Part shown: positions 6,577-56,950 of the stretch, piece by piece
Numbering within the stretch: the first letter of the stretch is position 1
How the letters are laid out: each line of letters starts with the position of its first letter
Assembly (NCBI RefSeq): GCF_003946265.1
Contig: NZ_RHNO01000003.1
Location: 1 to 64,000, forward strand
DNA from: Levilactobacillus yonginensis
GTDB taxonomy: Bacteria > Bacillota > Bacilli > Lactobacillales > Lactobacillaceae
Direction of reading: 5' to 3'
DNA length: 64,000 bases
Notes under the pieces: model-generated
Told to the model about the DNA's origin: nothing
What the model saw: the letters and a program-made list of their open reading frames with translations, nothing else
Databases searched by the model: none
Position numbers and translations under genes: made by a program

Positions 6577-6757
6577 GAGGTAGTCAGCGATGGTCGCCGC
6601 TGTGTCGACGATGTTGGTCGGCGTCTTATCAGCCGGCCTACATCGTGGGACGAACTTGAAGATTCGTGGTGTTGAGCGAAGCTTCAAGTCGAGGGAAAAG
6701 ACCGCTCTGTGGCTTTTCCCGGTCCCCATAGTAGCGTCCATTGTTGACTGCCGGAGC
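6577..6757 (-). repeat. Structured repeat family A, copy A1
   Basis: This is the first of 15 copies in the window. In sense orientation a copy reads: a long closing helix P1; CTGTGGGGACCG; arm a; CGACTTGAAACC with arm b; TTTCCAAGCTCG with arm c; ACCGTCGACACAG; the second strand of P1. It folds as a four-way, cloverleaf-like junction. In A1, P1 pairs 6582-6597 with 6734-6749 (15 of 16 positions, two wobbles). The copy begins a few bases after the stop codon of the 708-residue adhesin and has the same orientation as that gene. Confidence 0.85.
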
Positions 6758-6760
6758 TAA

Positions 6761-8887
6761 TTAGTCGTTCTTCCGAGCCTTAACACCTAAGCCCAAGGTA
6801 GCCAACAACATCGCGATGCCAGCAACGATAACACTGGCCGTACTTTGTTCGTTCGTTTGTGGCAAGGTCGTCTTAGCTGCTGACTGGTTAGCCGTTTGAT
6901 CACTGGCAGTAGCACTGGTTTTAGCAACCGTGGCTACCTGACCACTGGCCTTAACGGCTGAAGAACCCGTCTTAGCAACCGTTACCTGAGCCGCCTGTCC
7001 ATTGGACTGAACGGTTGCATTTTGATGAGAACTGGCCTTTTTCACAACTGCCTTAACAACTGGTTGGTCAGCTTCATCGATAGTTGCGGCATCCCCACCG
7101 GTCGTGACAACTGGTGCGTCAGTGTCAGTGGTTGCATCAACTGCTGGCGCAACTACGGCTGGTTGATCAACGCCAGGCGTTGGGTCAGTCGTAGTCGTGG
7201 TCCCAGTACCGGGATCAACAACCGGCGTTTGGTCGTTCTTAATTTCAAAACTAACGTAGGCAATGTAGCCGCCGTATTGGCTGGTGTAACTGTTGTTCTG
7301 GATGGCCATGTAGTAGGTCCCATCTGGTGCATCTGCGTTGGCCACCAGGTTAAAGCCCAGCTTGTTGGTTGGGTCCGCTTCGACCGTGAACCAGCTCGTG
7401 GCATTCTCTTGCTTGCCTTCCCAGGCGAGTAAGTCCGTCATCGCAACCGTGTCATCGGGTGCGCCATAGGTAATCCGAACACCCTTGGAATACTGGGTGA
7501 GGATGATGGGGTCGCTACTGAGTTGACCCGTCTTGCCGTCTTGAACACCGCTGACCACGTTCGTGATAGGGTCAAAAGTCCGGTCCTTGGCCGTCAACGT
7601 GTAACTCTTGCCGTTCAAGAATTGATAGTAACTGTAGTTGTTGATTTGAGTCGAGCCGTTGTAACGGTCCAACATCCCGGATGAAAATTCATTGTAGACA
7701 CCGTAGAACATACCGGTAAAGTTGCTGAGGTCTGGCAAATCACCAGATAGCCGGTTGTTGTTGATGTACAGGTATTGGATATCTGGCCAGTTGCTGAGAC
7801 TTGGCACGCTACCAGTCAATTGGTTGTTCGCCAGGTTCAGGTTGTTCAAGCTAGCTAAGCCCGCAATTCCAGATAGGTCACCCGACAAGTTGTTGTTCGC
7901 CATGTTTAAGTAAGAGAGTGCGGTGTAGCGGGACAAGTCTGGAATCGTGCCGGTCAGGCCAAAGTGACTCACGTCCATACTGCTCAGCTTCGTGTTCGAA
8001 GCGAGATAGGTATTGAAGAAACTAGCCACGTCCTTGGTCGTTGCCGTTCCTTTTAGACCACCCAAGTCCAGTTGCTTCAGGTTAGGGGCAAAGGAGAAGT
8101 CGATCATTTGGTCTGCTGGAATGTCATAACCGTAATCGAAGTATTGTAAATTCGTAAAGTACTGGAGGCCTTCAAATTCAGATGGCATTGGAATCGTGCC
8201 ACTGTAGTTGCTGGTGGTCAGAGTCGTTGCATTTTCAATGAACTGATACAAGTTAGCGTCGGTAATCTTAGCCCACGGCGCAGACTTTTGAACAACGTTT
8301 TCCACCCAGGTCCGCATTGCTTGACTTGGCATCCACACGGAAGCGTCGACCCCGTCAATGCTAGGCTTAGCAACTTTGGCTAAGTTAGACCGGTCAACCG
8401 CTAATTTAGGTGCAGATGCACTCACTTGCTTTGGCGCTTGCTGGCCATCATTTTGGACAGGTTCCTCAGTTTGTTTTGGTTCATCCTTAGTAACTGATTC
8501 CTGATCTTCTTTTTGAGCTGCGTTTTGAATTTGTTCTGGCTGTTTTTCAGGAGCAGCCGGTGCTTCTTCTTTAGTGGTCTGTTCTTTGTCTTGCGTGGCT
8601 GGTTCTTGTGGGTCTTGTTGCTGGTCCTTAACGCCACTTACATCATCAGACGTCTGTTCCTTGGTTTGACCATCAACCACACCAGCCGGCTTAGCAACGG
8701 AACCCGCATCCTGCTTCACAACGCTGCTCTGCGCAACATCGGGGTCAGTCGTGTCCGCCTGGGCCACACTAACACTGGCCAGACCCACCCCTAAAGCTAA
8801 AACGGTGATGCAAGCGAAAACCCAGCGTTTGCCTGCCTTGTAACTCTTGTAATGTTCTTTGGATACTCCCTCAACTTTTTGTAACAT
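6761..8887 (-). CDS. LRR adhesin with KxYKxGKxW signal and LPXTG anchor
   Basis: A 708-residue wall-anchored protein. Order of parts: KxYKxGKxW-type signal (YKSYKAGKRW, about 15-24); export segment ending at AQADT; Gln/Glu/Lys-rich linker to about residue 165; GVDASVWMP motif; leucine-rich repeats at about 240-385; a beta-rich region of unknown type (about 400-545); Thr/Asp/Pro-rich stalk; LPQTN signal near residue 675, hydrophobic segment and KARKND tail. The repeats have the form LxxLNMANNxLSGxL, reminiscent of plant-type LRRs rather than internalin repeats. Such domains usually bind proteins or glycans, so adhesion is inferred. The ATG has GAGGAGG upstream. Family A copy A1 lies at the 3' end. 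No terminator hairpin other than A1 is evident just downstream. Confidence 0.9.
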   Translation of the reverse strand: MLQKVEGVSKEHYKSYKAGKRWVFACITVLALGVGLASVSVAQADTTDPDVAQSSVVKQDAGSVAKPAGVVDGQTKEQTSDDVSGVKDQQQDPQEPATQDKEQTTKEEAPAAPEKQPEQIQNAAQKEDQESVTKDEPKQTEEPVQNDGQQAPKQVSASAPKLAVDRSNLAKVAKPSIDGVDASVWMPSQAMRTWVENVVQKSAPWAKITDANLYQFIENATTLTTSNYSGTIPMPSEFEGLQYFTNLQYFDYGYDIPADQMIDFSFAPNLKQLDLGGLKGTATTKDVASFFNTYLASNTKLSSMDVSHFGLTGTIPDLSRYTALSYLNMANNNLSGDLSGIAGLASLNNLNLANNQLTGSVPSLSNWPDIQYLYINNNRLSGDLPDLSNFTGMFYGVYNEFSSGMLDRYNGSTQINNYSYYQFLNGKSYTLTAKDRTFDPITNVVSGVQDGKTGQLSSDPIILTQYSKGVRITYGAPDDTVAMTDLLAWEGKQENATSWFTVEADPTNKLGFNLVANADAPDGTYYMAIQNNSYTSQYGGYIAYVSFEIKNDQTPVVDPGTGTTTTTDPTPGVDQPAVVAPAVDATTDTDAPVVTTGGDAATIDEADQPVVKAVVKKASSHQNATVQSNGQAAQVTVAKTGSSAVKASGQVATVAKTSATASDQTANQSAAKTTLPQTNEQSTASVIVAGIAMLLATLGLGVKARKND

Positions 8888-8917
8888 AATCGTTCCTCCT
8901 CAGTGTGAAGTCCTGCA

Positions 8918-9070
8918 TCACGCCCTAGTAAGTGCATACATTAAACCGGTCATAGCCACCTCATGCTTTCAAAGATTAACGATTGTGGGCGTCCCTAGTT
9001 TGCCACACATTTGATGAAGTGGATAAATTTCTTTATGACCCCATTGTAACGCGTTTTAGATAAATATCAA
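8918..9070 (-). promoter_or_regulatory. Promoter and CCCTAGTAA leader of the LRR adhesin
   Basis: On the minus strand TTGATA (9065-9070) and TACAAT (9043-9048) are separated by 16 bp. The surrounding A/T-rich bases resemble the promoter region of the gene at 38-853. TCACGCCCTAGTAA lies at 8918-8931, about 30 nt before the start codon, within a predicted leader of about 150 nt. Confidence 0.6.
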
Positions 9071-9335
9071 TAGAAATTATAAATGCTTTCAACTATTTCT
9101 TTAGTTGGTTTCATAGCCTTACCAATCGGTCGTCACCTCTCTGAGTAAACCGACCAAATGTCTTGGTAATCAAGGAGAGCCGGATGCTTCATGTCAATCG
9201 TTTTACTAGATACCAGAAGGATATCCGCATCGACTTCTGGCTATAATTTACGTTGATTGTCGCCCATTTAACCGCAAGGTCCGATTGCTTTCAATCCGCA
9301 GTAAAGTGCGCAAAATAATGGTTTACACTATAATT
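9071..9335. other. Gap without recognisable content
   Basis: No ORF with a ribosome binding site, no repeat copy and no clear hairpin were seen between the adhesin promoter and the next terminator. Confidence 0.4.
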
Positions 9336-9370
9336 AAAAAGTAGGCCTGTCTCAACGACAAGCCTACTTC
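9336..9370 (-). terminator. Terminator of the LRR/MucBP adhesin gene
   Basis: Minus-strand hairpin AAGTAGGCTTGTC / GACAGGCCTACTT followed by a T-run, about 60 bp after the stop at 9429. Confidence 0.8.
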
Positions 9371-9428
9371 AATCACACAATTCGTATTCTGGGTCATTTG
9401 CTAATTCATGGCACCCGTTGCTCGCAGC

Positions 9429-11543
9429 TTATTTCGTCCGCCGCCGGAAGCCTAGCCAGCCACTCAAGCTGAGCAGCAGGGCCACGCCCCACCAAGGTGA
9501 CGTTGTCCGTTCATCAGTCTGCGGTAAAGTGGTTGTTGCGGCTGACATTCCCGTCTGTCCAACCGTTGCTAGCGGTTCAGTCGTCACAGTTGCCCCCTGA
9601 CCACCAGTCGTGGTGCCGCTCCCACCGGGCGTCGATGGCTTACCTGGCTCTTCTGGTCCCGGTAAGTCCACGTCTGGATTTTCGACATCTGGATCAGTCG
9701 TTCCTAGGTCTCCACCGCCGCCGGTTTCAACAGCTGCATAGACGTAGGTCACACTGATATTTTCTTCGCCAAACGTGCCACTGGCGTTGGTCGGTGTTGC
9801 GACCAACTTGTACCCGTCCACCTCTAAGGCTTCGGTGGTATAAGCCGTGCCTGGCTGGCCGGTCAGCACCCTATCCGCCGCGATTGATTTCCCGTTGGCC
9901 AGTTGGTAATGAACGGTCACTGTGGTATCCGCTACCGGCGTCACCACGGGTGGCGTCACAGTTCCACCGCCGTCCTTCTTATAAACGTAGTAAACATCAA
10001 TGGCGGTATCGCCATATTTGCCGACCGCATTTTCTGGTGTCTTCAACAGGGTGTAGCCCTTAATCGTCTGGGCCTCCGTCACGTAGTCGTCGCCCACCAT
10101 CCCAGCAGGTAACGTCACCGCCTCTGCTAAGTCCTTCCCCGCCTCGTCCTGATAGTGGACCGTCACGGCCGCCGCCTTGTCCGCAATCACATACGGTTGC
10201 ACCACGGCGAACTGGTAGCTCCCGTAGGAATCGTTTCCTGAGGCGTTCCCGGTCATAAAGTAATACTCTTCCATCGGAATCACGGTAACGCCGGGGTAAG
10301 TGGTCCCACCAGGCTTTTGATCAGGAATATTTGTAAAGTATAAGCCACCTTGACCGTCGCTCGTTGCAGTTCCCCCGGTATTATAGATACGGTAATACAG
10401 GCCGCCATTGGCAAAGGACACGGGCTCACCCACGATAGCCGTCGCCGCAATTTGAATGACGTTGCCATCAATCGTGGTAAACGAAATTTTTAAATGGCCC
10501 TCCCGCAAATCGGTATCAACGTTGACCGGATTCAATTTCACAAATTGGCTACCTGCGTGAAATTTCGTGTAGCTGTTCCCTTTCAAGGGCGAAAAATCCT
10601 GAACGTGGTTGAACGCCATCAATAGGGTCTTCAAGTTCGTCAGCCCAGCTAACGGGGTCACGTCTTCAATTCGGTTGTGTTGCAGGTCCAAGTAAGTTAG
10701 CTTGTTCAGCTTAGCCAGTGGCGTCAGGTCGACCACATCCCCGTAGTAATAGCCCGGGTTCTGGTCCAAACTACTGCCGAGACTCAGCCGATTGAGGTTG
10801 GTGGCGTACTGTAGGCCTTCCAGGGAAAATTCCGTTTTCCCGTCGATATACGTGTTGACCTTCCCTTGAATACTCAGCGTCGTCAACAACAACAGATCAT
10901 CCTGGGTGATATCGTCAACGCTCCCCCAGGTCTGGCTTGGATTCTGACTACGTAACGCGGTTAAAATAGCTTGCTGGAGAATCTGATTTGGCATCCACTC
11001 ATCAATCGCCGACACCTTTGCCTGGTGATTCAGCTTAACGGGGGCTGCTTTGGCCACCTGAGCCTTGACCAGCTTCACTGCCTTGATCGAGGGATCAGCC
11101 CCCTGCTTAACCGTGGCTGGCGGTGTAACGTCGGCCGAAATCGGCACCGCCGTTTCCTGTTCAGTTGCGGGTTTCTCAGAGGTTACTGCCGGTTGGTCGT
11201 CCTTCTGGTCAGCCGGAGTCTCTGCTGGTTCCTCAACGAACGTTTCATTTGTGTCAGCGCTTTCATTTTCTGCTGAATCAGGCGCAACCGGTGCTTCTTC
11301 AGTCGTCTCTGCTGTCTGCTCCGTAGCTGATGAATTCAGCGTCACGGAATCTGCTTGCAAGTGCTGTGGAGATGTCGCAGCCGCTGTGGTATCAGTATTC
11401 GTGGTCGCCGTTGTATCTGCCTGAGCGGTCTGACCGCCAGTAACGGCAACGGCCAAACCCGCAGTAACCATAGTGGCCCAGACCCAGCTGCGCCCCTGTT
11501 TCGTCAACGTCCAAGTTGTCGGTGTGTCGTTCATTTTACGCAC
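9429..11543 (-). CDS. LRR plus MucBP adhesin with LPXTG anchor
   Basis: About 704 residues. The N-terminus carries a variant of the KxYKxGKxW signal (LTKQGRSWVW) and an export segment ending at QADTT. An acidic Glu/Thr/Ala-rich linker follows. Leucine-rich repeats of the internalin-like kind (LTYLDLQHNRIEDVTPL, LKTLLMAFNHVQDFSPL) lie at about 240-330. After an unassigned beta-rich part come two MucBP repeats (about 460-530 and 545-615), a Gly/Pro/Asp stalk and LPQTD with a hydrophobic segment and RRRTK tail. It should be sortase-linked and adhesive. An ATG at 11558 overlaps GAGGAGG, so the GTG at 11543, six bases after that site, is preferred; ATG 11534 is the alternative. Confidence 0.88.
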   Translation of the reverse strand: MRKMNDTPTTWTLTKQGRSWVWATMVTAGLAVAVTGGQTAQADTTATTNTDTTAAATSPQHLQADSVTLNSSATEQTAETTEEAPVAPDSAENESADTNETFVEEPAETPADQKDDQPAVTSEKPATEQETAVPISADVTPPATVKQGADPSIKAVKLVKAQVAKAAPVKLNHQAKVSAIDEWMPNQILQQAILTALRSQNPSQTWGSVDDITQDDLLLLTTLSIQGKVNTYIDGKTEFSLEGLQYATNLNRLSLGSSLDQNPGYYYGDVVDLTPLAKLNKLTYLDLQHNRIEDVTPLAGLTNLKTLLMAFNHVQDFSPLKGNSYTKFHAGSQFVKLNPVNVDTDLREGHLKISFTTIDGNVIQIAATAIVGEPVSFANGGLYYRIYNTGGTATSDGQGGLYFTNIPDQKPGGTTYPGVTVIPMEEYYFMTGNASGNDSYGSYQFAVVQPYVIADKAAAVTVHYQDEAGKDLAEAVTLPAGMVGDDYVTEAQTIKGYTLLKTPENAVGKYGDTAIDVYYVYKKDGGGTVTPPVVTPVADTTVTVHYQLANGKSIAADRVLTGQPGTAYTTEALEVDGYKLVATPTNASGTFGEENISVTYVYAAVETGGGGDLGTTDPDVENPDVDLPGPEEPGKPSTPGGSGTTTGGQGATVTTEPLATVGQTGMSAATTTLPQTDERTTSPWWGVALLLSLSGWLGFRRRTK

Positions 11544-11598
11544 GATAATCCTCCTCATTCGGTTGGCATATTGCTCTACATCCAGTTGTGAAATTTAG

Positions 11599-11645
11599 TG
11601 ATGCCCTAGTAAAGATACCGGTTGTTTTGATTCATCCCCATTATA
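11599..11645 (-). promoter_or_regulatory. Promoter and CCCTAGTAA leader of the LRR/MucBP adhesin
   Basis: A minus-strand TATAAT lies at 11640-11645, with only a weak -35 upstream. GTGATGCCCTAGTAA lies at about 11598-11612, matching the motifs before the two related adhesin genes. Confidence 0.5.
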
Positions 11646-11902
11646 ACTGCTCCCTCGTCATAAAGCCAGCATATAGTGAACAATCAACACCATTGTAATG
11701 GCTATAAATAAGTTGTAGTCGAACCCGTTCAAATGATTAAGTTCCTATTTTGATAGCGTTTATAAGTGATTTTATATTCCACACAGTTAATTGATTCTTC
11801 AATCATTTCCCATGTTACATATTTTAAATGTGGTAAAGACCGGTCCGATAAGGTTTGTTTGGTCATTTCTCGAACGATTCCCTTAGATATAAGTAAATTA
11901 GG
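11646..11902. other. Gap without a supported gene
   Basis: Short overlapping frames exist on both strands (11729-11923 and 11766-11990), but neither has a ribosome binding site or recognisable domain, and the second runs into the riboswitch. Nothing else is seen. Confidence 0.4.
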
Positions 11903-11931: not shown

Positions 11932-11948
11932 ATGTCCAACTTAAAAAA

Positions 11949-12037
11949 GTTTCTGGGGATACCGTCATACGGCACGAGAGTAAGTTGTGAACTTTGACCC
12001 ATCGAACCTGTCAGTTAACACTGGCGTAGGGAGAAAC
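11949..12037 (+). promoter_or_regulatory. TPP (THI-box) riboswitch
   Basis: Helix P1 is GTTTCT (11949-11954) with AGAAAC (12032-12037). Conserved segments are present in order: TGGGGATACC, CACGAGAGT, GACCCATCGAACCTGTC and ACTGGCGTAGGGAG. These correspond to the pyrimidine- and pyrophosphate-sensing arms of the TPP aptamer. A terminator follows at once, so thiamine pyrophosphate should switch off the downstream transporter genes by premature termination. Confidence 0.9.
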
Positions 12038-12046
12038 GCACGGATA

Positions 12047-12093
12047 CTTCATCTTGCGGCGGCGACTTCCCCTGAGATGAAGCTTTTTATTTT
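12047..12093 (+). terminator. Riboswitch-controlled terminator
   Basis: CTTCATCT (12047-12054) pairs with AGATGAAG (12075-12082), followed by CTTTTTATTTT. It is the expression platform of the TPP riboswitch and lies just before the ribosome binding site of the permease gene. Confidence 0.85.
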
Positions 12094-15319: not shown

Positions 15320-15508
15320 TGCCGCCTCCAGTGGTCAGGGCGGGCGTCTGCTGTGGGGACCGCCTACAGCCAAAGTACGGGCTTTCGGCTTAACTTGAAA
15401 CCGCAGAAATTCACTGCGTTTCCAAGCTTATCCCGTGGCGTAGACTCGGAAGAACACCGAGTTAACGCCACCGACACAGCCGACCCCCGCCCTGACCGCT
15501 TCCGGCTA
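15320..15508 (+). repeat. Structured repeat family A, copy A2
   Basis: P1 pairs GGTCAGGGCGG (15333-15343) with CCGCCCTGACC (15487-15497), extended by GCCG and CGGC at the ends. Sense orientation, directly after the TatD-family gene and before a terminator. Confidence 0.85.
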
Positions 15509-15600: not shown

Positions 15601-15756
15601 GTTGTGACTCTTTTTAAATGATGCACAATTTATATTAATCTGCCCAACAGTTTCACCAGCATCGGTTGGCGCTAAGTTCAAACCAATGCTAAGCAACCTG
15701 CTAAGTAACCTTAAACTGACATTTCTTTTGAAACCGATAGCCATCTTAGCCGATAG

Positions 15757-15886
15757 GTCACAGCAGATGGGCTCAGGCGCCTCGTTCTGCTTAGCCGTTT
15801 ACGGCTTAGAAGAAGACCAAGCTTTAAGACTCGGGTTCTTCGAGGCTTAAAGTTGTGTCGGCACCGTTCCAGCCCATCTGCTGCGA
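15757..15886 (-). repeat. Structured repeat family B, copy B1
   Basis: In sense (minus) orientation a family B copy reads: closing helix; GGAACGG(T/G)GC; arm CTTTAAG / CTTAAAG; GCTTGGTCTTC; a second arm; CGCCTGAG; second strand of the helix. Here the closing helix is CAGCAGATGGGCT (15761-15773) with AGCCCATCTGCTG (15871-15883), plus GTC/GAC outside. It lies 3' of the aquaglyceroporin gene in sense orientation. Confidence 0.8.
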
Positions 15887-15910
15887 CCGGCAAGGCGGCT
15901 AACGTGATAA

Positions 15911-16678: not shown

Positions 16679-16720
16679 GTTGCCGCCTCCGGTTGTCAGG
16701 GGCGGTGGCCTGCTTTGAAT
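16679..16720 (+). repeat. Truncated family A copy (5' fragment)
   Basis: GCCGCCTCCGGTTGTCAGG matches the 5' end of family A copies, but the rest of the element is absent. Like the full copies A6 and A8, its GCCGCC end faces the start of a minus-strand gene. Confidence 0.55.
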
Positions 16721-18258: not shown

Positions 18259-18404
18259 GGCCGCCAGATATGGGCTCAGGCGCGACGTTCTGCTAAGTTA
18301 GTAGGCGTTTTCCCTACTGACTTAGCGGAAGACCAAGCTTGTAGACTCGGTCCCTTCGAGGCTTCAAGCTGCGTCCGCCCCGTTCCAGCCCATATCTGGC
18401 GGCC
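18259..18404 (-). repeat. Structured repeat family B, copy B2
   Basis: Closing helix of 18 perfect pairs (GGCCGCCAGATATGGGCT, 18259-18276, with 18387-18404). Relative to B1 and B3 the helix sequence differs but pairing is kept. It lies 3' of the Spx-like gene, beyond its terminator, in sense orientation. Confidence 0.82.
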
Positions 18405-29354: not shown

Positions 29355-29545
29355 TGGCCGCCTGCGGCCGCCAGGGACCACGCTGTGGGGCAACCCCTGA
29401 AGCCTCGAAAAACACGAGTCTTCAGGGCGCCTAGAAACCTCGCGGCAGACCACCCCGAGTTTCCTAGGTCGGCCCATGTTCTAGGTGGCATAGCCCCTGC
29501 CACCAAGAACATCGACACAGCGCGGTCCCTGGCCTCCTCCGGCTT
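29355..29545 (+). repeat. Structured repeat family A, copy A3
   Basis: P1 core CCAGGGACC (29371-29379) with GGTCCCTGG (29524-29532). Sense orientation 3' of galM, about 60 bp beyond its terminator. Arm c carries the pair CATGTTCTAGGTGG / CCACCAAGAACATC. Confidence 0.85.
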
Positions 29546-30699: not shown

Positions 30700-30884
30700 T
30701 GCCGCCTCCGGATGCCGGGAATGGGGGCCGCTGTGGGGGCCGGAGAAAGCCAAAGAGCGGTCTTTCTCCTCGACTTGAAACCGGGCCTAACCCGCCCGTT
30801 TCCAAGCTCGCCCCACAACGTAAGCTGGCTCGCCAGCTTACGTTTTCGACACTGCGGCCACCATTCCCGTCAACCTACGGCTAC
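30700..30884 (+). repeat. Structured repeat family A, copy A4
   Basis: P1 pairs 30715-30731 with 30854-30870 (inner GGCCGC / GCGGCC, outer GGGAAT / ATTCCC). Arm a is GGAGAAAG / CTTTCTCC. Arm c holds CGTAAGCTGGC / GCCAGCTTACG. Sense orientation after the 145-residue gene. Confidence 0.85.
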
Positions 30885-31084: not shown

Positions 31085-31268
31085 AGCCGGAGGACGCCAG
31101 GGACTGCGCTGTGTCGATGTTCTTAGCGGAGTGATTCTTTCCGCTTAGAACATGGGCCGACCTGGGAAACTCGCGGATTGGGCGAGGTTTCCAGGCGCCT
31201 TGGGAGACCGCACTTTGGCTCCCGAGGGCCGCCCCACAGCGCAGTCCCTGGCGGCCGCAGGCGGCCAA
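31085..31268 (-). repeat. Structured repeat family A, copy A5
   Basis: P1 is 19 perfect pairs, CGCCAGGGACTGCGCTGTG (31095-31113) with 31235-31253. Arm a is TTGGGAG / CTCCCGA. Sense orientation, beginning about 20 bp after the mapA stop. Confidence 0.88.
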
Positions 31269-33586: not shown

Positions 33587-33767
33587 CCGCCTGCGGCTGC
33601 CAGACGCCACACAGTGGGGTAACCCCGAAGCCTCAAAGGACGAGTCTTCAGGGCGACTTGAAACCTCACTAAGTTCGTGAGTTTCCAAGCTCGACCCGTG
33701 CTCTAAGCCAGCTAGGAACGCTGGCTAACAGCACCTTCACTGTGTTCTGTCTGTCATCCTCCGGCTA
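33587..33767 (+). repeat. Structured repeat family A, copy A6
   Basis: P1 pairs 33601-33616 with 33738-33753 (inner CACAGTG / CACTGTG, outer CAGAC / GTCTG). Unlike the copies at gene ends, this one points away from the start of mapA, 42 bp upstream, so it is antisense to the maltose genes. Confidence 0.83.
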
Positions 33768-41515: not shown

Positions 41516-41707
41516 AGCCTTCGGTTGTCAGGGAGGGGCTCGCCGTGTCGGTGGTGTTAGTCACGGGTGACTTGGCCCGGGGCTTACAGCACGGGACGAG
41601 TTTGAAAACTTGCGGGTTGGGCAAGGTTTCAAATCGAGCCGGAGGACCGCTTCTCAGGCCGCAGGCGGTCCCCACAGCGAGCCCCTCCCTGGCGGCCGAA
41701 GGCGGCC
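41515..41707 (-). repeat. Structured repeat family A, copy A7
   Basis: P1 of 16 pairs: GTCAGGGAGGGGCTCG (41527-41542) with CGAGCCCCTCCCTGGC (41678-41693), one wobble. Sense orientation, ending at the stop codon of the histidine kinase gene. Confidence 0.86.
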
Positions 41708-43775: not shown

Positions 43776-43962
43776 TGGCCGCCTGCGGTTAGCAGGAACC
43801 GTGCTGTGGGGCAACCCCTGAAGCCTCGAAAATCACGAGTCTTCAGCGGCGACTTGAAACCTCACCCAAACCGTGAGTTTCCAAGCTCGGCCCAGACTCT
43901 AAGCGGAGAAGCCCCCTCCGCTAAGACTCTCGACACTGCTCGGTTCCTGCTAACCTCCGGCT
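43776..43962 (+). repeat. Structured repeat family A, copy A8
   Basis: P1 of 14 perfect pairs, GGTTAGCAGGAACC (43787-43800) with 43942-43955. It points away from the start of the response-regulator gene, 40 bp upstream, in the same geometry as A6. Confidence 0.85.
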
Positions 43963-44150: not shown

Positions 44151-44336
44151 GCCGGAGGCGGCCAGGGATGGAGCCAGCCGTGAAAGTGGTGTTAGCTGGC
44201 GATTTTTTCAGCCAACTTACAGCACGGGCGACTTTGAAGACACGTGTTCTTCGTGGCTTCAAAGCGAGCGAGAAGACTGGTGGTCTTCCAGTCTGAAGCG
44301 TCCCCACAGCAGGCGGAATCCCTGGCCGCCGGAGCG
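44151..44336 (-). repeat. Structured repeat family A, copy A9
   Basis: P1 pairs GGCGGCCAGGGAT (44157-44169) with ATCCCTGGCCGCC (44318-44330). It faces A8 across 188 bp. Arm a is less regular than in other copies. Confidence 0.8.
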
Positions 44337-47579: not shown

Positions 47580-47769
47580 TGCCGCCTCCAGAGGTTGGGG
47601 GCAACCCTCGCTGTGGGGACCGGGGGAAGCCACAGAACGGTCTTCCCCCTCGACTTGAAACCTTGCCCAACCCGCAAGTTTCCAAGCTCGTCCCGTGGCC
47701 TAAGAACGAGCAACCCACTCGCCCTAACGCCACCGTCACAGCGAGCATTGTCCCCAACCTCTTCCGGCT
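47580..47769 (+). repeat. Structured repeat family A, copy A10
   Basis: P1 is 24 positions long (47592-47615 with 47737-47760) with only two mismatches. Arm a is GGGGGAAG / CTTCCCCC, arm b GAAACCTTGC / GCAAGTTTCC. Sense orientation 3' of the YfhO-like gene, after its terminator. Confidence 0.87.
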
Positions 47770-47993: not shown

Positions 47994-48350
47994 TAGCCAG
48001 CCAGTGCCAGGGAGGGTTCCCCGCAGTGTCGATGGTGTTGGTCTGGGCGAACTTCCCGGACTTACAGCATGGGATGTGTTTGAAGACTTGTTCGGGCTTT
48101 GAAGAAGGCTTCAAATCAAGTCGGAGGACCGCTCTTCAGGCCGCAGACGTGCCCCACAGCGGGGGCCCTCACTGGCACTGGCTGGCGGAGCCCCCGAATC
48201 TACAGCATGGGATGTGTTTGAAGACTTATTTGGGCTTTGAAGAAGGCTTCAAACCAAGTCGGAGGACCGCTCTTCAGGCCGCAGACGGTCCCCACAGCGG
48301 GGGCCCTCACTGGCACTGGCTGGCGGCACCCCCGCTTCCATAAAGCTAGC
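47994..48350 (-). repeat. Structured repeat family A, copy A11, with internal tandem duplication
   Basis: P1 starts at 47998 (CAGCCAGTGCCA) and can pair with TGGCACTGGCTG-type sequence at about 48171-48186 or again about 138 bp later. A 138-bp block (48063-48200) is repeated directly as 48201-48338 with a few substitutions, so the 3' half of the plus-strand reading occurs twice. It lies upstream of the secreted protein gene at 48402, pointing away from it. Confidence 0.83.
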
Positions 48351-49416: not shown

Positions 49417-49601
49417 AGCCGGAGGTTGCCAGGATGGTAGCTGGCTGTGTCGACGGTGTTAGCTAGCGTCTCACAGCTAGCTTACAGCGTGGGACGAGCT
49501 GGGAGCCTCAGCGGTTTACCGAGGCTTCCAGTCGAGGCGTGAGACCGCACTATGGATCACGCCGGTCCCCACAGCCAGCCACCACTCTGGCAACCGTAGG
49601 T
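49417..49601 (-). repeat. Structured repeat family A, copy A12
   Basis: P1 covers 26 positions (49424-49449 with 49570-49595) with two mismatches. Arm a is GGCGTGAG / ATCACGCC-type, arm c TTAGCTAGC / GCTAGCTTA. Sense orientation, ending 9 bp from the stop of the antiporter gene. Confidence 0.88.
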
Positions 49602-50823: not shown

Positions 50824-51021
50824 TTAATGAGTCATTTTTTCAATAATTGCTGAATCCTTCACCCAGCATAGTCTTCCGGCGCTTAAATTGCGACCCGGTA
50901 GCCAGTCAATCAGGTGAGTAAATTTAGTCCATTTGCCTGCAAGCAAACAAAAAGCGACCGCCAAAAACGGTCCCCCCAACCCAAGGAGGACGCCGTTCTT
51001 GAAAGCAGTCGCTTCAACCAT
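50824..51021 (-). CDS. Possible 65-residue leader membrane peptide
   Basis: An ATG frame starts about 15 nt after the predicted transcript start and ends 18 bp before the antiporter gene. It encodes one hydrophobic segment (VLLGLGGPFLAVAFCLLAG) and then a basic part. It has no good Shine-Dalgarno site, and its first half overlaps the attenuator hairpin. It could be a translated leader that controls the hairpin, or simply noncoding. Confidence 0.25.
   Translation of the reverse strand: MVEATAFKNGVLLGLGGPFLAVAFCLLAGKWTKFTHLIDWLPGRNLSAGRLCWVKDSAIIEKMTH
50948..51014 (-). promoter_or_regulatory. Terminator-like attenuator in the antiporter leader
   Basis: On the minus strand AAGCGACTGC and GCGGTCGCTT form the base, and AACGGCGTCCTCC and GGGGGGACCGTT the upper stem, followed by TTTTTGTTTG. 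It lies downstream of the promoter and upstream of the antiporter gene, so expression requires read-through. Confidence 0.6.
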
Positions 51022-51432: not shown

Positions 51433-51455
51433 ACCGGTCAGGTGCAATATCGTTA

Positions 51456-51626
51456 CGGTGGTCAAGTGTGGAGCCTGTGGGACCGTCTAAAGCCTATGGT
51501 GCGGTCTTTAGACTCGACTTTAAGCCTCCAAATACGAGTCTTAAAGGTCGTCCTAGTCTTGTAAGATCAAGTAGCCCACTTGGTCTAACAAGACCGCCAC
51601 GGGCTCCGCACCTGACCACCTCCACT
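51456..51626 (+). repeat. Structured repeat family A, copy A13
   Basis: P1 covers 24 positions (51459-51482 with 51598-51621), one mismatch and two wobbles, but with a sequence unlike most other copies (GGTGGTCA at its base). Arm b is CTTTAAGCCTC / GAGTCTTAAAG, identical in style to family B. Sense orientation 3' of the DUF2929 gene. Confidence 0.8.
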
Positions 51627-51723: not shown

Positions 51724-51775
51724 AAGAGCCTAGTTTGCTCGACGTAGTATCTACCGTCAACCAGACTAGGCTCAT
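51724..51775. terminator. Hairpin between A13 and A14
   Basis: GAGCCTAGT / ACTAGGCTC with a long loop. Weak T-tracts lie on both sides. Confidence 0.5.
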
Positions 51776-51848
51776 TTTAATTTAACGATTCATGAACACC
51801 ATCCGTACGCCAACCGATTCGAAGATGAAGCCAATTCCACCATCGGAG

Positions 51849-52029
51849 CCAGTGGCTGCCAGGGAGGGCCGGCCGTGTCGACGGTGTTGGCTAGCGTTTT
51901 TAAGCTAGCCTACAGCGTGGGACGAGCTTGGAGCTTCGGCGATTTACCGAAGCTTCAAGTCGAGGAGCGAGACCGCTCTTTGGCTCGCTCCGGTCCCCAC
52001 AGCGGGCCCTCCCTGGCAGCCGCAGGCGG
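51849..52029 (-). repeat. Structured repeat family A, copy A14
   Basis: P1 of 17 perfect pairs, GGCTGCCAGGGAGGGCC (51854-51870) with 52005-52021. Arm a GGAGCGAG / CTCGCTCC; arm b GAGCTTCGG / CCGAAGCTTC; arm c GGCTAGC / GCTAGCC. One of the cleanest copies. Sense orientation, 10 bp from the stop of the alarmone synthetase gene. Confidence 0.9.
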
Positions 52030-52038
52030 ACACCCTAA

Positions 52039-52710
52039 TCAACTACGCTTTTCCTCCGCCCGAATCTGGTTCTTGATGGCGTTCATGTCCTGATCGAGCT
52101 GATGTACCAACTCGGCCTTCGCCACCAGTTCATGCCGCAGCTCATCCTGATGCTGGACGTTTTTCTTATAACTCAATTCATGTTCCAACGAGGCCCAAAA
52201 GTTCATGGCAATCGTACGGATCTGTACCTCCACCGTTACTTCTTCGACGCCCGCCGCCAGAAAGACCGGGACTGCCAGAATTAAATGCAAGCTCCGATAG
52301 CCGTTTGGCTTGGGTTTCGATACGTAGTCCTTACGGTTCAAAATTTTAATATCCGGTTGCTTTTCTAACCGCCGCTCCATGGATAAAATATCGTCTTCAA
52401 ATCGCACAATAATACGGATACCCGCGATGTCATGCATTTGTTGCGGTAACGTCTCAAAATCAAAGGCCAAGTGTTTGCGCTGCACCTTTTCCAGAATGCT
52501 TTCCGGTGACTTGATACGAGACTGAAGACTATCCACCAACGTGTGCCCATTTTGAATCTGATACTCCTGGTCCAAGTAGTGAATCTTAGTCTCCACGACC
52601 TGCACAGCACTTCGATAATTCAACATCAGTGAACGAAACCGATCGATGGCCTCCAAGGATGTTGGATCATTGGCAAACTGGGCGGGTAAATTATTTGTCG
52701 TATCTGTCAT
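52039..52710 (-). CDS. relP: Small alarmone synthetase (RelP-like GTP pyrophosphokinase)
   Basis: A 223-residue cytoplasmic (p)ppGpp synthetase with a single RelA_SpoT synthetase domain and no hydrolase or TGS domain. Marks: HDIAGIRIIVRFEDDI, ILNRKDYVSKPKPNGYRSLHLI (residues about 127-148; nucleotide and GTP contacts) and VEVQIRTIAMNFWASLEHELSYK. The SLHLI and NFWASLEHELSYK forms fit RelP (YwaC) better than RelQ. Its ATG overlaps the stop of the upstream MFS gene by 4 bases (ATGA), so the two are co-translated. Family A copy A14 follows the stop. Confidence 0.87.
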   Translation of the reverse strand: MTDTTNNLPAQFANDPTSLEAIDRFRSLMLNYRSAVQVVETKIHYLDQEYQIQNGHTLVDSLQSRIKSPESILEKVQRKHLAFDFETLPQQMHDIAGIRIIVRFEDDILSMERRLEKQPDIKILNRKDYVSKPKPNGYRSLHLILAVPVFLAAGVEEVTVEVQIRTIAMNFWASLEHELSYKKNVQHQDELRHELVAKAELVHQLDQDMNAIKNQIRAEEKRS

Positions 52711-53951
52711 TCGTTTACACTCCTCTTAGTGGGTTTACTGCGCCATTGCCGAATTTCTGGAACCAACCACCATAGTAGCAGAAAGTTTAGCAGCAAGGTA
52801 AATGCCGTAAACGTGAATACACCACTGTAGTTAAACCAATTGGCCACTAAGCCCCCAACTAGCGCTCCCAGCATACTACCGAGTGCCTGGAAAGATTGAT
52901 TCCAGCTGAAGACCGTCCCAACTAACGAATGGGGTGCGTTCTTGGTCAGCATCGTTTGAACGGCTGGGAACAAAGCCCCATCGGAGACCCCAATCATGAA
53001 TCGAAACACCCCGAGTAGCCAGACACTGGACACGAATCCCTGCGGAAAGTACATCAAGACGGCAAAAACGTACCCGAAGACCAACACCCGTTGCGTCCCA
53101 TGGCGATCACCATACTCACCTAACTTTGGCGCCGCTAACAGTGTTGAAATTCCGGGCAACGCCGCAATAATCCCCGCAACTAACGTAATCGGTCCCGTGC
53201 CGTTCATGAGTTGTTTAACGTACAGACTAATAATTGGCGTGATGGAGTTATTCCCCATTTGAATAAACATGGTTGAAACTAACAATACTAAAATGAGTTT
53301 TGGATTTTTGACCTGTTTGAGCCAACTCCCCGCCTGCGCCTGTTTCTCGCGACTGATGGGGGTGAAATGTTCGTGGACCAACGTGGCGCTTAGAATAAAG
53401 ACCACAATCAAGAAAAAGCCCGTCAACAGAAAGGTCCAGCGAATGGTGAATACCTGAGCCAGGATACCACCCAAAACTGGGCCAATCAAGTTTCCACTCA
53501 CGTACCCCGTTGTCAGCACACCCAACGCGTTGCCACTCTTTTCCTTGGGCGTTTCAGCAGCAATCAACGCACTGGCATTAGGAATATAGCCAGCAAAAAA
53601 TCCCTGTAGAAAACGCAATCCAATCAACTGCCAGACGTTCGTGACAAAGCCCATGAGGCCAATCACGATGGCCATCCCAATTGACGACCGGAGTAACATC
53701 AGCTTCCGACCCTTACGATCGGCCAGCTTGCCCCACAATGGTGAGACCGCCGCGATGACAAAGAACGTGGCCGCGTAGGTCAACCCACTGTAGATAGTGA
53801 CCTGGCCCTTCGTAAAGTGACCCAAGCCCTCAACGTACAACGATAAGAATGGCATGATTTCACTGAAACCCATGCCAGCAATAAACGTTCCTAACCACAA
53901 GACGGCTAAATTTCGCCGCCATTGTTCAGGTTTACCTTTGCGTGCTCCCAC
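52707..53951 (-). CDS. MFS multidrug-type exporter
   Basis: A 414-residue membrane protein with about 12 helices of the drug:H+ antiporter branch. Motif A is PLWGKLADRKGRKLMLL between helices 2 and 3; motif B-like LRFLQGFFAGYIPNASAL follows in helix 4. The second half repeats motif A as KLGEYGDRHGTQR. Substrates cannot be told. Its stop overlaps the start of the alarmone synthetase gene, linking efflux with (p)ppGpp synthesis. The start is GTG with AAAGAGG about 10 nt upstream. Confidence 0.85.
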   Translation of the reverse strand: MGARKGKPEQWRRNLAVLWLGTFIAGMGFSEIMPFLSLYVEGLGHFTKGQVTIYSGLTYAATFFVIAAVSPLWGKLADRKGRKLMLLRSSIGMAIVIGLMGFVTNVWQLIGLRFLQGFFAGYIPNASALIAAETPKEKSGNALGVLTTGYVSGNLIGPVLGGILAQVFTIRWTFLLTGFFLIVVFILSATLVHEHFTPISREKQAQAGSWLKQVKNPKLILVLLVSTMFIQMGNNSITPIISLYVKQLMNGTGPITLVAGIIAALPGISTLLAAPKLGEYGDRHGTQRVLVFGYVFAVLMYFPQGFVSSVWLLGVFRFMIGVSDGALFPAVQTMLTKNAPHSLVGTVFSWNQSFQALGSMLGALVGGLVANWFNYSGVFTFTAFTLLLNFLLLWWLVPEIRQWRSKPTKRSVNE

Positions 53952-54032
53952 GACTTCTTCGCCTCTTTAGATGTTTATTTACAAAATGACGTCCTACAAG
54001 ATTAGCTATTTCACTTATGCTTAGATAGACGT

Positions 54033-54296
54033 TTAATTTAGAAATCCAAAATAAACGACCACGCCGATTATCATCACCAGCAAGCTCACAGCCGCCAATC
54101 GTTTGCGCTTTAAGAAAGAGCCAAATGTGAAGGCCAATGCAAAAACTGTGGTAATCCCCCACACCCAATTATTGAGTGGCTAAGCAGCCTGAGCTGAGAT
54201 TGCCTCTTCATTTATCAGATAACCCCAAATACAAAATGCACTGACGACTATCCCTACCAATCCTAAAAGCCACATTGGTACGTGACGCTTCGACAT
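54033..54296 (-). pseudogene. Small two-helix membrane protein split by a TAG codon
   Basis: From ATG 54296 (GGAG upstream) the frame encodes MSKRHVPMWLLGLVGIVVSAF and on to codon 38, where TAG occurs (complement of 54180-54182). The same frame continues with a second hydrophobic half (WVWGITTVFALAFTFGSFLKRKR, positions about 54110-54170, then LLVMIIGVVVYFGFLN) and a TAA at 54033. Together it looks like one 87-residue membrane protein broken by a nonsense mutation. It could be two peptides, but no ribosome binding site is seen for the second. Confidence 0.6.
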
Positions 54297-54451
54297 CTAA
54301 CCGCTCCCCAATCCTAAACAAGCTCATAGCAGAACTTAACTGGATACAATTATTTAAATTTTTAAGTTCACTGAATCCGTTACTAACTAGTGTAGCATAA
54401 CTTGGACAGCCCACTACAAATAAGCACAGTGTCCCAATCGAAAGAAATTAC

Positions 54452-54480
54452 TTCACAAATGAACGGTTTTCAGGCATAAT
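54452..54480 (+). promoter_or_regulatory. Promoter of the first alcohol dehydrogenase gene
   Basis: TTCACA, 17-bp spacer, CATAAT, about 50 bp before the start codon. Confidence 0.6.
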
Positions 54481-54532
54481 GAATTCCGGCATGTGATTAG
54501 AGTAACAGAAAATTGATAATGGAGGAGATTTT

Positions 54533-55291
54533 ATGTCAAATCGTTTAGATGGTAAAGTTGCAATCGTTACGGGTGGCTCATTAGGTATCGGTTTAGCCGT
54601 TGCCCAAAAGTTTGTTGAAGAAGGCGCAAAGGTGATGATCACTGGTCGTCACGCCGACGTCGGTGAAAAGGCTGCTAAGTCCGTTGGCACTCCTGATGTC
54701 ATCCAATTCTTCAAGCACGACGCAACTGACGAAGAAGGCTGGAACGACTTGTTCGACGCCACTGAAAAGGCCTTTGGCCCCGTTACCACGGTCGTTAACA
54801 ACGCCGGGATGGCCATTGCTAAGAGCATCGAAAACACCACGACTGCCGAATGGCGTCAACAATTAGGTGTTAACTTAGATGGTGTCTTCTTCGGTACGCG
54901 TTTGGGTATCCAACGCATGAAGAACAAGAACCTCGGCGCCTCCATCATCAACATGTCTTCCATTGAAGGCTTGGTTGGTGACCCTAACTTAGGTGCCTAC
55001 AACGCCTCCAAGGGTGCTGTGCGGTTGATGTCCAAGTCCGCTGCTTTGGATTGCTCCTTGAAGGACTACGATGTGCGGGTCAACACCGTTCACCCTGGTT
55101 ACATCAAGACGCCATTAGTTGACGCACAACCTGGGTTTGAAACGAACATGTCTCAACGGACCAAGACGCCAATGGGTCACATCGGTGAACCTAACGACAT
55201 CGCCTACATCTGTGTTTACTTGGCTTCCAACGAATCCAAGTTCGCTACTGGTGCAGAATTCACTGTCGATGGTGGTTACACTGCCCAATAA
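54533..55291 (+). CDS. R-specific short-chain alcohol dehydrogenase, copy 1
   Basis: A 252-residue cytoplasmic SDR. Coenzyme motif TGGSLGIG, NNAG motif NNAGMA, catalytic Ser in NMSSIEG, Tyr/Lys in YNASKGA, and the C-terminal GGYTAQ that in the L. brevis enzyme helps bind Mg2+. The coenzyme specificity region TGRHADVGEKAAK fits NADP(H) use. It should reduce prochiral ketones or aldehydes to R-alcohols. It closely resembles L. brevis R-ADH as I recall it. GGAGGAG precedes the ATG. A second copy lies 340 bp downstream. Confidence 0.92.
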   Translation: MSNRLDGKVAIVTGGSLGIGLAVAQKFVEEGAKVMITGRHADVGEKAAKSVGTPDVIQFFKHDATDEEGWNDLFDATEKAFGPVTTVVNNAGMAIAKSIENTTTAEWRQQLGVNLDGVFFGTRLGIQRMKNKNLGASIINMSSIEGLVGDPNLGAYNASKGAVRLMSKSAALDCSLKDYDVRVNTVHPGYIKTPLVDAQPGFETNMSQRTKTPMGHIGEPNDIAYICVYLASNESKFATGAEFTVDGGYTAQ

Positions 55292-55308
55292 TCTCTGATT
55301 TTTCTGAC

Positions 55309-55343
55309 GAAGCAACCGGCCCACTTTGGGTTGGTTGCTTTTT
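55309..55343 (+). terminator. Terminator of alcohol dehydrogenase copy 1
   Basis: GAAGCAACC / GGTTGGTTGCTT hairpin followed by TTTAAT. Confidence 0.75.
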
Positions 55344-55396
55344 AATTGGATTTGAGGTAAAAGTCTCAGACTCTTTTTACGTTCTGAACGTATATA

Positions 55397-55522
55397 GTCG
55401 AAACGTGCGCCAAAAGGCAGTCAACTCCGCTTAACCCCGCTAGACCAACAATCCAAGACCGGGATTGTTCGCCTAGCGACGTTAATGCTCATTGACTAAC
55501 CGCCTTTCATCGCACTCTCTTT
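55397..55522 (-). repeat. Repeat family C, copy C3
   Basis: In minus orientation it begins AGAGAGTG, with ATGAGCATTAACGTCG and GGGGTTAAGCGGAG, and ends GCACGTTTCGAC. Unlike C1 and C2 it is antisense to both flanking genes and lies between the tandem dehydrogenases. Confidence 0.78.
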
Positions 55523-55546
55523 AATTGCTTAAAATTGATAAAATAC

Positions 55547-55575
55547 TTAACAAACTTAGCAAGTTGTAGCATAAT
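55547..55575 (+). promoter_or_regulatory. Promoter of the second alcohol dehydrogenase gene
   Basis: TTAACA, 17-bp spacer, CATAAT, about 57 bp before the start codon; similar -10 to the first copy. Confidence 0.6.
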
Positions 55576-55631
55576 AGTAATTAACTTGTATGTGAAACTA
55601 ATCACGTAAATACTTTATGGAGGTCATAATT

Positions 55632-56390
55632 ATGGCAAATCGTTTGGATGGAAAAGTTGCAATCGTAACTGGCGGAACGCTTGGCATTGGTTTAGCCGTT
55701 GCTCATAAGTTTGTTGAAGAAGGCGCAAAGGTCATGATTACTGGCCGTCACGCTGACGTTGGTGAAAAGGCCGCCAAGTCCATTGGAGCCCCTGACGTGA
55801 TTCAGTTCTTCCAACAAGATGTTTCGGAAGAAGCCAGCTGGAACGCCGTTTTCGATGCAACTGAAAAATCCTTTGGACAAGTTACCACGGTGGTTAACAA
55901 CGCCGGTATCGGTTTAACTGGTCCCATCGAAAGCACGACGACGGAAGACTGGCATAAGTTACTTTCCGTTAACTTGGACGGCGTCTTCTTCGGTACCCGG
56001 TTAGGGATTCAACGGATGAAGAACAAGCACTTAGGTGCCTCCATCATCAACGTTTCCTCCATCGAAGGTTTAGTTGGGGACGCTAACGCCGGCTCCTATA
56101 ACGCCTCTAAGGGTGCTGTGCGGATCATGTCCAAGTCAGCCGCTCTGGATTGTGCCATGAACGACTACGACGTGCGGGTCAACACGGTTCACCCTGGCTA
56201 TATTAAGACGCCAATGGTTGAAGCCGTTCCTGAAATCGAGGCCGCCATGTCTGACCGTTCCAAGACGCCAATGGGCCACTTAGGTGAACCCGACGACATC
56301 GCCTACATCTGCATCTACTTGGCTTCCAACGAATCCAAGTTTGCTACGGGTGCTGAATTCGTTGTCGACGGTGGTTACACCGCCCAATAA
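55632..56390 (+). CDS. R-specific short-chain alcohol dehydrogenase, copy 2
   Basis: A 252-residue paralogue of the preceding gene, colinear over its whole length, with the same TGGTLGIG, NNAG, SSIEG, YNASKGA and GGYTAQ motifs. Differences cluster around substrate-pocket regions (AGIGLTGPIEST against AGMAIAKSIENT; EAVPEIEAAMSDRS against DAQPGFETNMSQRT), suggesting a shifted substrate range. ATG 55632 follows GGAGGTC. Independent promoter and terminator mean the copies can be regulated separately. Confidence 0.92.
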   Translation: MANRLDGKVAIVTGGTLGIGLAVAHKFVEEGAKVMITGRHADVGEKAAKSIGAPDVIQFFQQDVSEEASWNAVFDATEKSFGQVTTVVNNAGIGLTGPIESTTTEDWHKLLSVNLDGVFFGTRLGIQRMKNKHLGASIINVSSIEGLVGDANAGSYNASKGAVRIMSKSAALDCAMNDYDVRVNTVHPGYIKTPMVEAVPEIEAAMSDRSKTPMGHLGEPDDIAYICIYLASNESKFATGAEFVVDGGYTAQ

Positions 56391-56456
56391 GCATCACTCC
56401 TTGTGGCATTACCTGCCGCCACTCAACTCGTTCACGTTCATTAATACCGCAACAAC

Positions 56457-56492
56457 AAAGAAGCTCCAGCCAAATTGGTCGGAGCTTCTTTG
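56457..56492. terminator. Terminator of alcohol dehydrogenase copy 2
   Basis: AAAGAAGCTCC / GGAGCTTCTTT outer stem, with CAGCC / GGTC-type inner pairs. Confidence 0.8.
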
Positions 56493-56529
56493 TCTCTTCT
56501 ATTCTCTTTGCTGGTTGTTTTCGCCTTAC

Positions 56530-56674
56530 CGGTCCCAGCAGATGGGCTGGAACGGTGCCGACACAATTTTAAGCCTCACCAAACCCGTGAGTCTTAAAAC
56601 TTGGTCTTATTCTAACTGCCGGAAAACCACTGGCACTAAGAATAACGAGACGCCTGAGCCCATCTGCTGGGACC
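56530..56674 (+). repeat. Structured repeat family B, copy B3
   Basis: Closing helix of 18 perfect pairs, GGTCCCAGCAGATGGGCT (56530-56547) with 56657-56674. First arm TTTTAAGCCTCAC / GTGAGTCTTAAAA. Sense orientation 3' of dehydrogenase copy 2, after its terminator. Confidence 0.83.
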
Positions 56675-56762
56675 TCACGGCTTTGACGGTGGTCACCTGC
56701 TGCATTCTCTACCCTAACTGGCTTAACTACCTGGATATCCTTAGTCTAACCAACTAGTGTCA

Positions 56763-56950
56763 GTCGCAGGTTCTCGGGCAGGTTGGTGGCTGTGTCGCTG
56801 ATGTTAGTTCGGACGTCTTTGGCCAAACTTACATCAGGGGACGAGCTTGGAAACTTGCGGTTTGGGCAAGGTTTCAAGTCGAGGGGAAAGACCGAACTGT
56901 GGCTTTCCCCGGTCCCCACCGCCACCGGCCTGCCCGAGAACCGGAGACGG
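56763..56950 (-). repeat. Structured repeat family A, copy A15
   Basis: P1 covers 26 positions (56769-56794 with 56917-56942) with one mismatch. Arm a GGGGAAAG / CTTTCCCC; arm b GGAAACTTGC / GCAAGGTTTC. Sense orientation, ending at the stop of the DUF1634 gene. Confidence 0.88.

Follow-up and report, generated by a model that had tools for sequence, protein, structure and literature searches.

The 64,000-nucleotide stretch of Levilactobacillus yonginensis DNA analysed here (assembly GCF_003946265.1, contig NZ_RHNO01000003.1, positions 1 to 64,000; referred to as the window) carries fifteen full-length copies of a repeat, module A, which had earlier been picked out from the sequence alone as a cloverleaf-like family (the original prediction). 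Module A is a non-coding, intergenic element of about 190 bp, found across much of one bacterial family. It is a real element, whose fold has been kept through double changes across copies and genera, and its mobility is demonstrated by carriers, which are miniature inverted-repeat transposable elements (MITEs), and by one solo insertion. The reading that we favour, with a probability of roughly 0.5, is that module A is a structure-selected non-coding cassette carried by MITEs, with an arrangement like that of REPINs (hairpin-forming doublets of repetitive extragenic palindromic, REP, sequences).

Fold and covariation of module A

The original prediction described a long closing helix and three inner arms. 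The number of arms was right, but the topology is nested: helix P1 encloses P2 and P5, and P2 in turn encloses P3 and P4. P1 comprises 25 bp and extends further outwards in many copies. When four copies were folded one by one, each came out 8 to 10 standard deviations below its shuffled versions. All fifteen sites listed in the original prediction contain a full-length copy, as judged by a covariance model (R1, 112–170 bits) that was trained on the same fifteen window copies that it scores.

In the alignment of these copies 90.2% of the 918 cells belonging to the 64 pairs are standard pairs. Both partners have changed in 49 of the 64 pairs, a number reached in none of 500 shuffles, and versions in which the partners were slid gave 17–21 pairs. 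The covariation score was 0.499, compared with 0.171 for the shuffles and at most 0.124 with slid partners. An alignment of 53 copies, 32 of them from other genera, had double changes in 58 of the 64 pairs (869 doubly changed cells); again none of 500 shuffles was as high, and the slid versions had at most 207 such cells. The 53-copy alignment was fitted to the model and hence leans towards it, and in all covariation tests the relatedness of the copies was controlled by the slid versions only. Module A thus has covarying pairs beyond chance, as a structured RNA would.

Four joints between the helices had been named as conserved. Three of them beat chance when up to two mismatches were allowed (the observed number was reached in none of 100 shuffles), whereas CGTCGACACAG alone did not (20 occurrences versus 14.3 expected; 11 of 100 shuffles).

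Copy number and distribution

The expectation of a genome-wide element was borne out by a covariance scan of the own genome, which gave at least 150 matches (only so many were scored) out of 749 first-look candidates. The exact joint CTGTGGGGACCG occurs 67 times in this genome and its reversed control not once. At about 168 bases each, the 150 scored copies by themselves account for some 25 kb of intergenic DNA that has no Rfam family. The covariance model has matches in 33 of 35 Levilactobacillus genomes and, family-wide, in 95 of 378, which belong to 10 of the 40 genera sampled; the latter count is a lower bound, as stricter filters were used for it. Scanning contigs with a strict pattern yielded 52 stretches, made up of Levilactobacillus species, one metagenome-assembled genome of an uncultured Lactobacillus and one stretch of Companilactobacillus nodensis.

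The module fits no named family in Rfam, as had been supposed: no Rfam match covers any A copy in the stretches scanned. In the whole window the gathering threshold was passed by a TPP (thiamine pyrophosphate) riboswitch alone, and by nothing on the A copies, while a sub-threshold scan of 47.4–52.2 kb and of four other loci (L133, L157, L183 and L188) gave six weak matches, all off the A copies. A search of plasmids and phages with one A copy gave no match. Nothing on module A turned up in the open-licence literature searched, which does not in itself prove its absence from print.

Carriers and insertions

G342 is a complete chromosome from another genus, and a composite built on it served to search nine genomes of that genus. 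In G342 and in a second genome, G297, most listed matches were 80–93% identical; the copies from these two genomes were picked by their likeness to the query and are therefore biased to young ones.

Three kinds of carrier were distinguished by their ends. The type 1 MITE, about 370 bp long and common to 21 aligned G342 copies, most of them with recognisable inverted ends (GGTTCTTTCTCAATTTTGGTTA), contains an internal terminator-like hairpin, and module A adjoins its right end. Its length was 364–375 bp in 10 of the 11 loci at which a script found both ends (20 were tried). Type 2 has the ends CTAAAGGTTGAAAG and is present in G297, in G028 (taken to be L. tongjiangensis) and in the own genome; matching flanking repeats of 7–9 bp were seen by eye at 9 of the 17 printed loci. 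Type 3, with the ends CGCGTTGTGCTAGTTA, was found in G297 at L188 and L189, also with flanking repeats by eye. Examples of target-site duplications (TSDs) of the carriers are TAAAGAAT, TTATATTCT and, at L183, TTAACTGT. In types 2 and 3 of G297 module A lies again near the right end, in the same orientation as in type 1. The module is thus located near one end of MITEs that have three kinds of terminal inverted repeats (TIRs), and in the aligned loci the same end of the module always points outwards. Module A has spread at least partly as MITE cargo.

Five type 1 MITEs (L154, L156, L161, L162 and L171) are situated, by eye, in or right behind terminator-like hairpins, those of L156, L161, L162 and L171 inside the hairpin loop. 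The type 1 element's own hairpin, which has A- and T-runs, may restore termination.

The clearest solo insertion is copy L187, lying between two genes that we take to be response-regulator-like and kinase-like. Of 30 printed orthologous loci 28 lack it, and at the orthologous place G342 has a different A-bearing insertion. A 5-bp repeat, GTTAA, may flank it, along with two extra bases. Less clear are L181, where four related species have A copies and the others none, and L186, with a type 1 MITE in G342 and A without a MITE in G297. At another intergenic site A stands alone in G297 (L193) and together with a type-2-like end in G342 (L194), which reflects either independent insertions or the trimming of one insertion.

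The A-less 184-bp type 2 copies L251 and L252 are not empty forms but deletions; L254 may be genuinely empty or may have arisen by deletion between TATTTA repeats. One 3.3-kb pair of type 2 ends, a candidate autonomous element, encloses one open reading frame (ORF), presumably helicase-like, and no second ORF of transposase size. A plasmid search gave no match for types 1 and 3 and a single 104-bp match for type 2.

For the own genome, stretches were obtained for 60 of the 105 regions planned around model matches and are biased to good matches. Among the 216 model matches some palindromes are counted again on the reverse strand; 150 matches were aligned, and the analysis used the first (best) 124. 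Fifteen of these 124 were recognised as near-identical, MITE-borne copies that hitch-hike in one MITE. Because of their near identity they were dropped from the flank and strand statistics, which left 109 copies. Among the 109 there was no general TSD at module A (the best direct match, z 4.0, was far from the ends), the inverted flank match (z 8.2) was P1 running on outwards, and the flanks gave no TIR belonging to A itself. MITEs with TIRs and TSDs, which the original prediction had named as an explanation that would undo its own, were recognised as the explanation of the young copies only. A common TIR around 34 inverted pairs was also considered and rejected, as 2 of 34 pairs reached p=0.012, both T-rich, and the mean score did not exceed that of mispaired flanks. 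At least one of them (L022:3146–3309), however, has a type-2-like end nearby.

Age and decay of the copies

In L. tongjiangensis 13 of the 15 window sites are covered, and A is present at all 13. In G032, a relative that is about 88% identical, A was found at 9 of the 15 sites, one copy being partial; at 15.3, 49.4, 51.9 and 56.8 kb there is a remnant or a join within the module ends, and at 6.6 and 43.8 kb the comparison gives no clean picture. The comparable window copies are thus nearly all old, and some have decayed by deletion in the relative.

The sequence TTGCCGCCTnCGGCTA was considered as an empty site or pre-existing target hairpin in G032. This was rejected: with up to one mismatch it had only six matches in G032 and two in the own genome, and in view of this small number we interpret it as the scar of a deletion between CCTnCGG repeats. 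At the CCTnCGG sites the two repeats were alike in 19 of 53 cases (24 expected), not above chance, and are thus not a target duplication.

Across 22 comparisons of orthologous copies paired sites differed at 167 of 2635 positions (6.3%) and unpaired sites at 140 of 1024 (13.7%). Fourteen pairs had changed on both sides and were still Watson–Crick, 42 had become A.C, 19 G.T and 42 other mismatches; 21 pairs were non-Watson–Crick in both orthologues. Taken together with the losses in G032, these counts indicate that the fold is partly guarded at fixed sites, yet that the copies are dispensable.

Constraint on joints and arms

Mean heterozygosity across the 21 type 1 copies of G342 was 0.230 for the left TIR, 0.225 for the element's left half and 0.106 for module A. 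The minima were on the 5′ side of P4 (0.018) and in the joint GGTCCCCACAGC (0.008), whereas P3 (0.55) and P5 (0.25–0.31) were highly variable. The variability of the module's joints is thus 10–30 times lower than that of the carrying MITE's left half. The variable arms have kept their pairing: P5 was Watson–Crick in 151 of 160 cells (40 copies of G342 and G297, with seven different perfect stems) and P3 in 187 of 195 (39 copies). Variants of P5 and P3 occurred in 41 combinations among 43 cores. Conserved joints with helices free in sequence have the look of a recognised fold.

These data bear on the idea that module A is a passive passenger, an old repeat palindrome whose complementarity is kept not by selection but by hairpin-templated copying (quasi-palindrome correction). 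Correction of palindromes by template switching is an established process; mismatch intermediates are few, and whole arms change together with their complementarity kept, as such copying would have it. We nevertheless regard a passive passenger as quite improbable, since it leaves unexplained why variation within the MITE is lowest in the unpaired joints and P4 and why the module sits close to the same end in MITEs whose TIRs differ.

The folding strand

Mismatches within the helices are not distributed evenly between the strands. On the strand as given A.C exceeded G.U in the 109 copies (242 versus 98, ratio 2.5 (1.9–3.2)), with 80 copies biased one way and 17 the other; pyrimidine–pyrimidine exceeded purine–purine mismatches (357 versus 40), and the orthologues also had more A.C than G.U (42 versus 19). 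The A.C excess comes from G–C columns. On the complementary strand these mismatches become G.U and purine pairs such as G.A, which are better tolerated by helices. This favoured strand was the more stable one in 98 of the 109 copies, by a mean of 12.2 kcal/mol, which is largely an effect of base composition (see below). We take the mismatch bias as moderate evidence that what matters is the fold of the strand that runs outwards from the spacer to the gene.

Arrangement of the copies

The ORF nearest to the 5′ side of module A (strand as given) had the same direction in 72 of the 109 copies, with the module a median of 43 bp past its stop; it was opposite in 35 (median 133 bp from the start) and lacking in 2. 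ORFs on the other side of A were at median distances of 348–410 bp, and divergent ORFs flanked only 8 copies. ORF positions are from a simple caller; 24 of the 109 copies overlap by more than 100 bp with ORFs of at least 90 amino acids, and these ORFs are presumed to be spurious.

It had been proposed that the repeat could be a regulatory module of 3′-untranslated regions (3′-UTRs). More broadly, a regulatory RNA beneficial to the host, for example a 3′-UTR stabiliser or an antisense RNA at gene ends, would fit the frequent position just after a same-strand ORF and the rarity between divergent ORFs, and the orthologous copies do partly keep their pairing. The proposal is weakened by the 35 copies that lie 5′ of the neighbouring gene. 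By eye, the 60 bases preceding module A on the favoured strand contain no conserved promoter-like block; moreover, two of the 35 genus genomes have no match, and A is absent at 6 of the 15 window sites in G032. We consider a regulatory RNA of this kind unlikely.

Runs of at least five T were found within 60 bases before 37 of the 109 copies (strand as given), compared with 4–10 in three control counts. Such runs would suit a transcription insulator, in which A and the type 1 terminator-like hairpin block read-through at intergenic edges, and so would the A- and T-runs of that hairpin and the several type 1 elements that by eye lie in or beside terminator-like hairpins. Most A copies, as far as could be seen by eye, lack a T run after P1 on either strand, and we hold this explanation to be very improbable.

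Neighbouring copies less than 900 bp apart numbered 55 cases, pooled from the own genome and relatives with MITE-borne copies included. Of these, 49 were convergent (strand as given) and 6 tandem, and none was divergent. The spacers of the inverted pairs are mostly 100–400 bp long, with 27–55% G+C; only the MITE-borne copies, and two loci of relatives, have spacers that are homologous to each other. On the favoured strand the 5′ end has a conserved TAGCC. The hairpin thus has a GTAG-like tag at its foot (G 54%, T 63%, A 84% and G 83% in the 109 copies), and the G297 copies mostly have CTAG.

These features recall another suggestion of the original prediction, a REP-like unit moved by a transposase. 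Module A would then be a giant GTAG-tagged single-stranded DNA (ssDNA) hairpin unit moved by a Y1 transposase of the REP-associated tyrosine transposase (RAYT) type, and the inverted pairs would be tail-to-tail dimers. The TAGCC end, the overall preference for one strand and the inverted pairs with inside tags and variable spacers, like the tail-to-tail dimers in the part of PMC3733652 consulted on GTAG REPs, all agree with it. The transposase, however, does not track the module. Y1_Tnp (PF01797) is encoded in 21 of 33 A-bearing genomes of the genus and in both A-less ones, 12 A-bearing genomes are without it, and in the stretches around three of the four Y1 sites of the own genome there was no A copy (E 1e-6), so that at these three sites the Y1 (RAYT) transposase is not flanked by the repeat. 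The module is also far longer (~190 bp versus 20–40 bp), and the movement observed is largely that of young copies inside MITEs with TIRs and 7–9-bp flanking repeats. Because the Y1 transposase does not track A, we reject this model as the sole explanation and rate it as improbable overall.

A proposed selected cassette carried by MITEs

According to the reading we favour, that of a structure-selected cassette, the selected entity would be the fold of the strand that reads outwards from the spacer to the neighbouring gene, as RNA or as ssDNA. A trans-acting factor would recognise the conserved joints and loops, with P3 and P5 serving as sequence-free helices, and this recognition may help the carrier to spread or persist, as in REPIN and bacterial interspersed mosaic element (BIME) systems. 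The occurrence of A in at least ten lactobacillus genera and in MITEs with different ends, and the far greater conservation of its joints than of the carrier, are hard to explain as passive repeat DNA.

Several observations weigh against this reading. The strand signal is reversed in A–U columns (48 G.U versus 15 A.C, about half of them from one column); across genera A.C and G.U numbered 74 and 63, and 74 and 34 only when two columns were left out. The difference in stability largely reflects base composition (shuffles: 103 of 109, mean 8.4 kcal/mol), and strand-biased mutation may be the source of the strand signal. The uniformity of the joints could come from gene conversion among copies. 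In G297 types 2 and 3 have CATATTTAACT in common beside the right end, and the number of independent carriers may therefore be two instead of three. A-less copies of type 2 have moved (L253 and L254, each with its own flanking repeat), so there A was cargo, not needed for movement. For none of the carriers did an autonomous transposase turn up, with one candidate examined.

Module A and other features of the window

All positions below are those of the window, and bit scores are those of R1. Single copies of A are located at 6580–6751 (− strand, 146.0 bits), 15331–15499 (+, 159.3 bits; G032 retains the scar TTGCCACCTCCGGCTA only), 29367–29536 (+, 112.4 bits, a subtype with GGGGCAACCCC), 33596–33758 (+, 119.3 bits), 41524–41696 (−, 146.4 bits) and 49425–49594 (−, 169.6 bits, the top score, with a fold z of −8.1). 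Four inverted pairs consist of a left (+) and a right (−) copy: 30711–30874 (157.4 bits) with 31093–31255 (142.5 bits), the spacer of which contains by eye a terminator-like hairpin; 43785–43957 (135.6 bits) with 44158–44329 (118.5 bits); 47591–47761 (161.3 bits) with 48003–48179 (133.3 bits); and 51458–51619 (122.1 bits) with 51855–52020 (167.2 bits). The copy at 56770–56941 (−, 166.4 bits) is paired with a member of family B at 56531–56674 (+, 66.2 bits).

The copy predicted at 48.2 kb is the full one at 48003–48179, adjoined by a tandem partial duplicate of 138 bp that is 91% identical (48184–48321, −; repeat family D8). Tandem duplication of A was noted at 48003–48321 of the window and at L062:15143–16119; L. 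tongjiangensis has a tandem series at the 31-kb site. The predicted fragment at 16.7 kb exists as just the first 31–34 bases of the 5′ end (16680–16713, +; repeat family D13); the copy of G028 is longer yet incomplete, and G032 has a scar.

Family B is a related, shorter module, with its other window copies at 15756–15888 (−, 49.3 bits) and 18260–18403 (−, 59.0 bits). Its arm order is as in A, its P3 loop is similar, and it is the inverted partner of A at several loci. A B insertion with the TSD CCACTA is uncertain, since B remnants mark several of the B-less copies as deletions.

The TPP riboswitch lies at 11944–12049, upstream of a run of ORFs on the + strand. At 50971–51019 (−) there is a sub-threshold match to the Na+ riboswitch RF03071 (29.1 bits, cut-off 40.5). 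The ORFs at 54531–55125 and 55630–56224 are neighbours with about 80% identical DNA.

Comparison with known systems

The omega RNA of TnpB/IscB elements is a structured guide RNA derived from the right transposon end and reading outwards. Module A resembles it in being structured, at the right end of a mobile element and outward; the two were compared through Rfam only, and they differ in that no Rfam match, even below the threshold, lies on A copies in the stretches scanned. We mention as a long shot that A might be an end-derived guide-RNA scaffold, the outward transcript of which would run a few bases into the flank, so that a nuclease acting in trans could mark the occupied or the empty site. 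This would explain the right-end place in MITEs with different TIRs, the outward pairs, the constrained joints and the free helices, and different MITEs sharing the scaffold would all profit. No nuclease gene linked to A came up, though no search was aimed at nucleases. We class module A as a MITE- or REP-like interspersed repeat, with a small chance of its being an RNA with a targeting role.

We know of no MITE carrier of bcr1, a repeat of the Bacillus cereus group. In the part of PMC2267715 consulted bcr1 is 147–167 bp long with a predicted conserved structure, and 12 or 31 copies are tabulated. By description only, it is like A in size class and conserved structure, and in its mobile-element character according to a title cited there (PMC2267715).

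The GTAG-tagged REP, BIME and REPIN sequences, as described in the portion of PMC3733652 consulted, are hairpins of 20–40 bp linked to RAYT transposases. Like A, they are intergenic, multicopy and palindromic, with a tagged end and inverted dimers of variable spacer, and some copies are inserted into other palindromes (PMC3733652). They differ from A, which is about 190 bp long, three-armed and covarying, and does not track Y1; that portion of the text has no mention of 'lactobacill' (PMC3733652).

Bacterial MITEs, including ERIC, BOX/RUP/SPRITE and QMITE2, are non-coding and have TIRs and direct repeats, according to the sections consulted of a review (PMC10969869). The same sections give them an intergenic position, stable secondary structure and nested insertions, as in the A system (PMC10969869). 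The difference is that here a single structured module recurs in MITEs whose TIRs differ, and the constraint on its joints exceeds that on the carrier. Module A makes it testable, in harmless laboratory species, why bacterial interspersed repeats keep elaborate folds.

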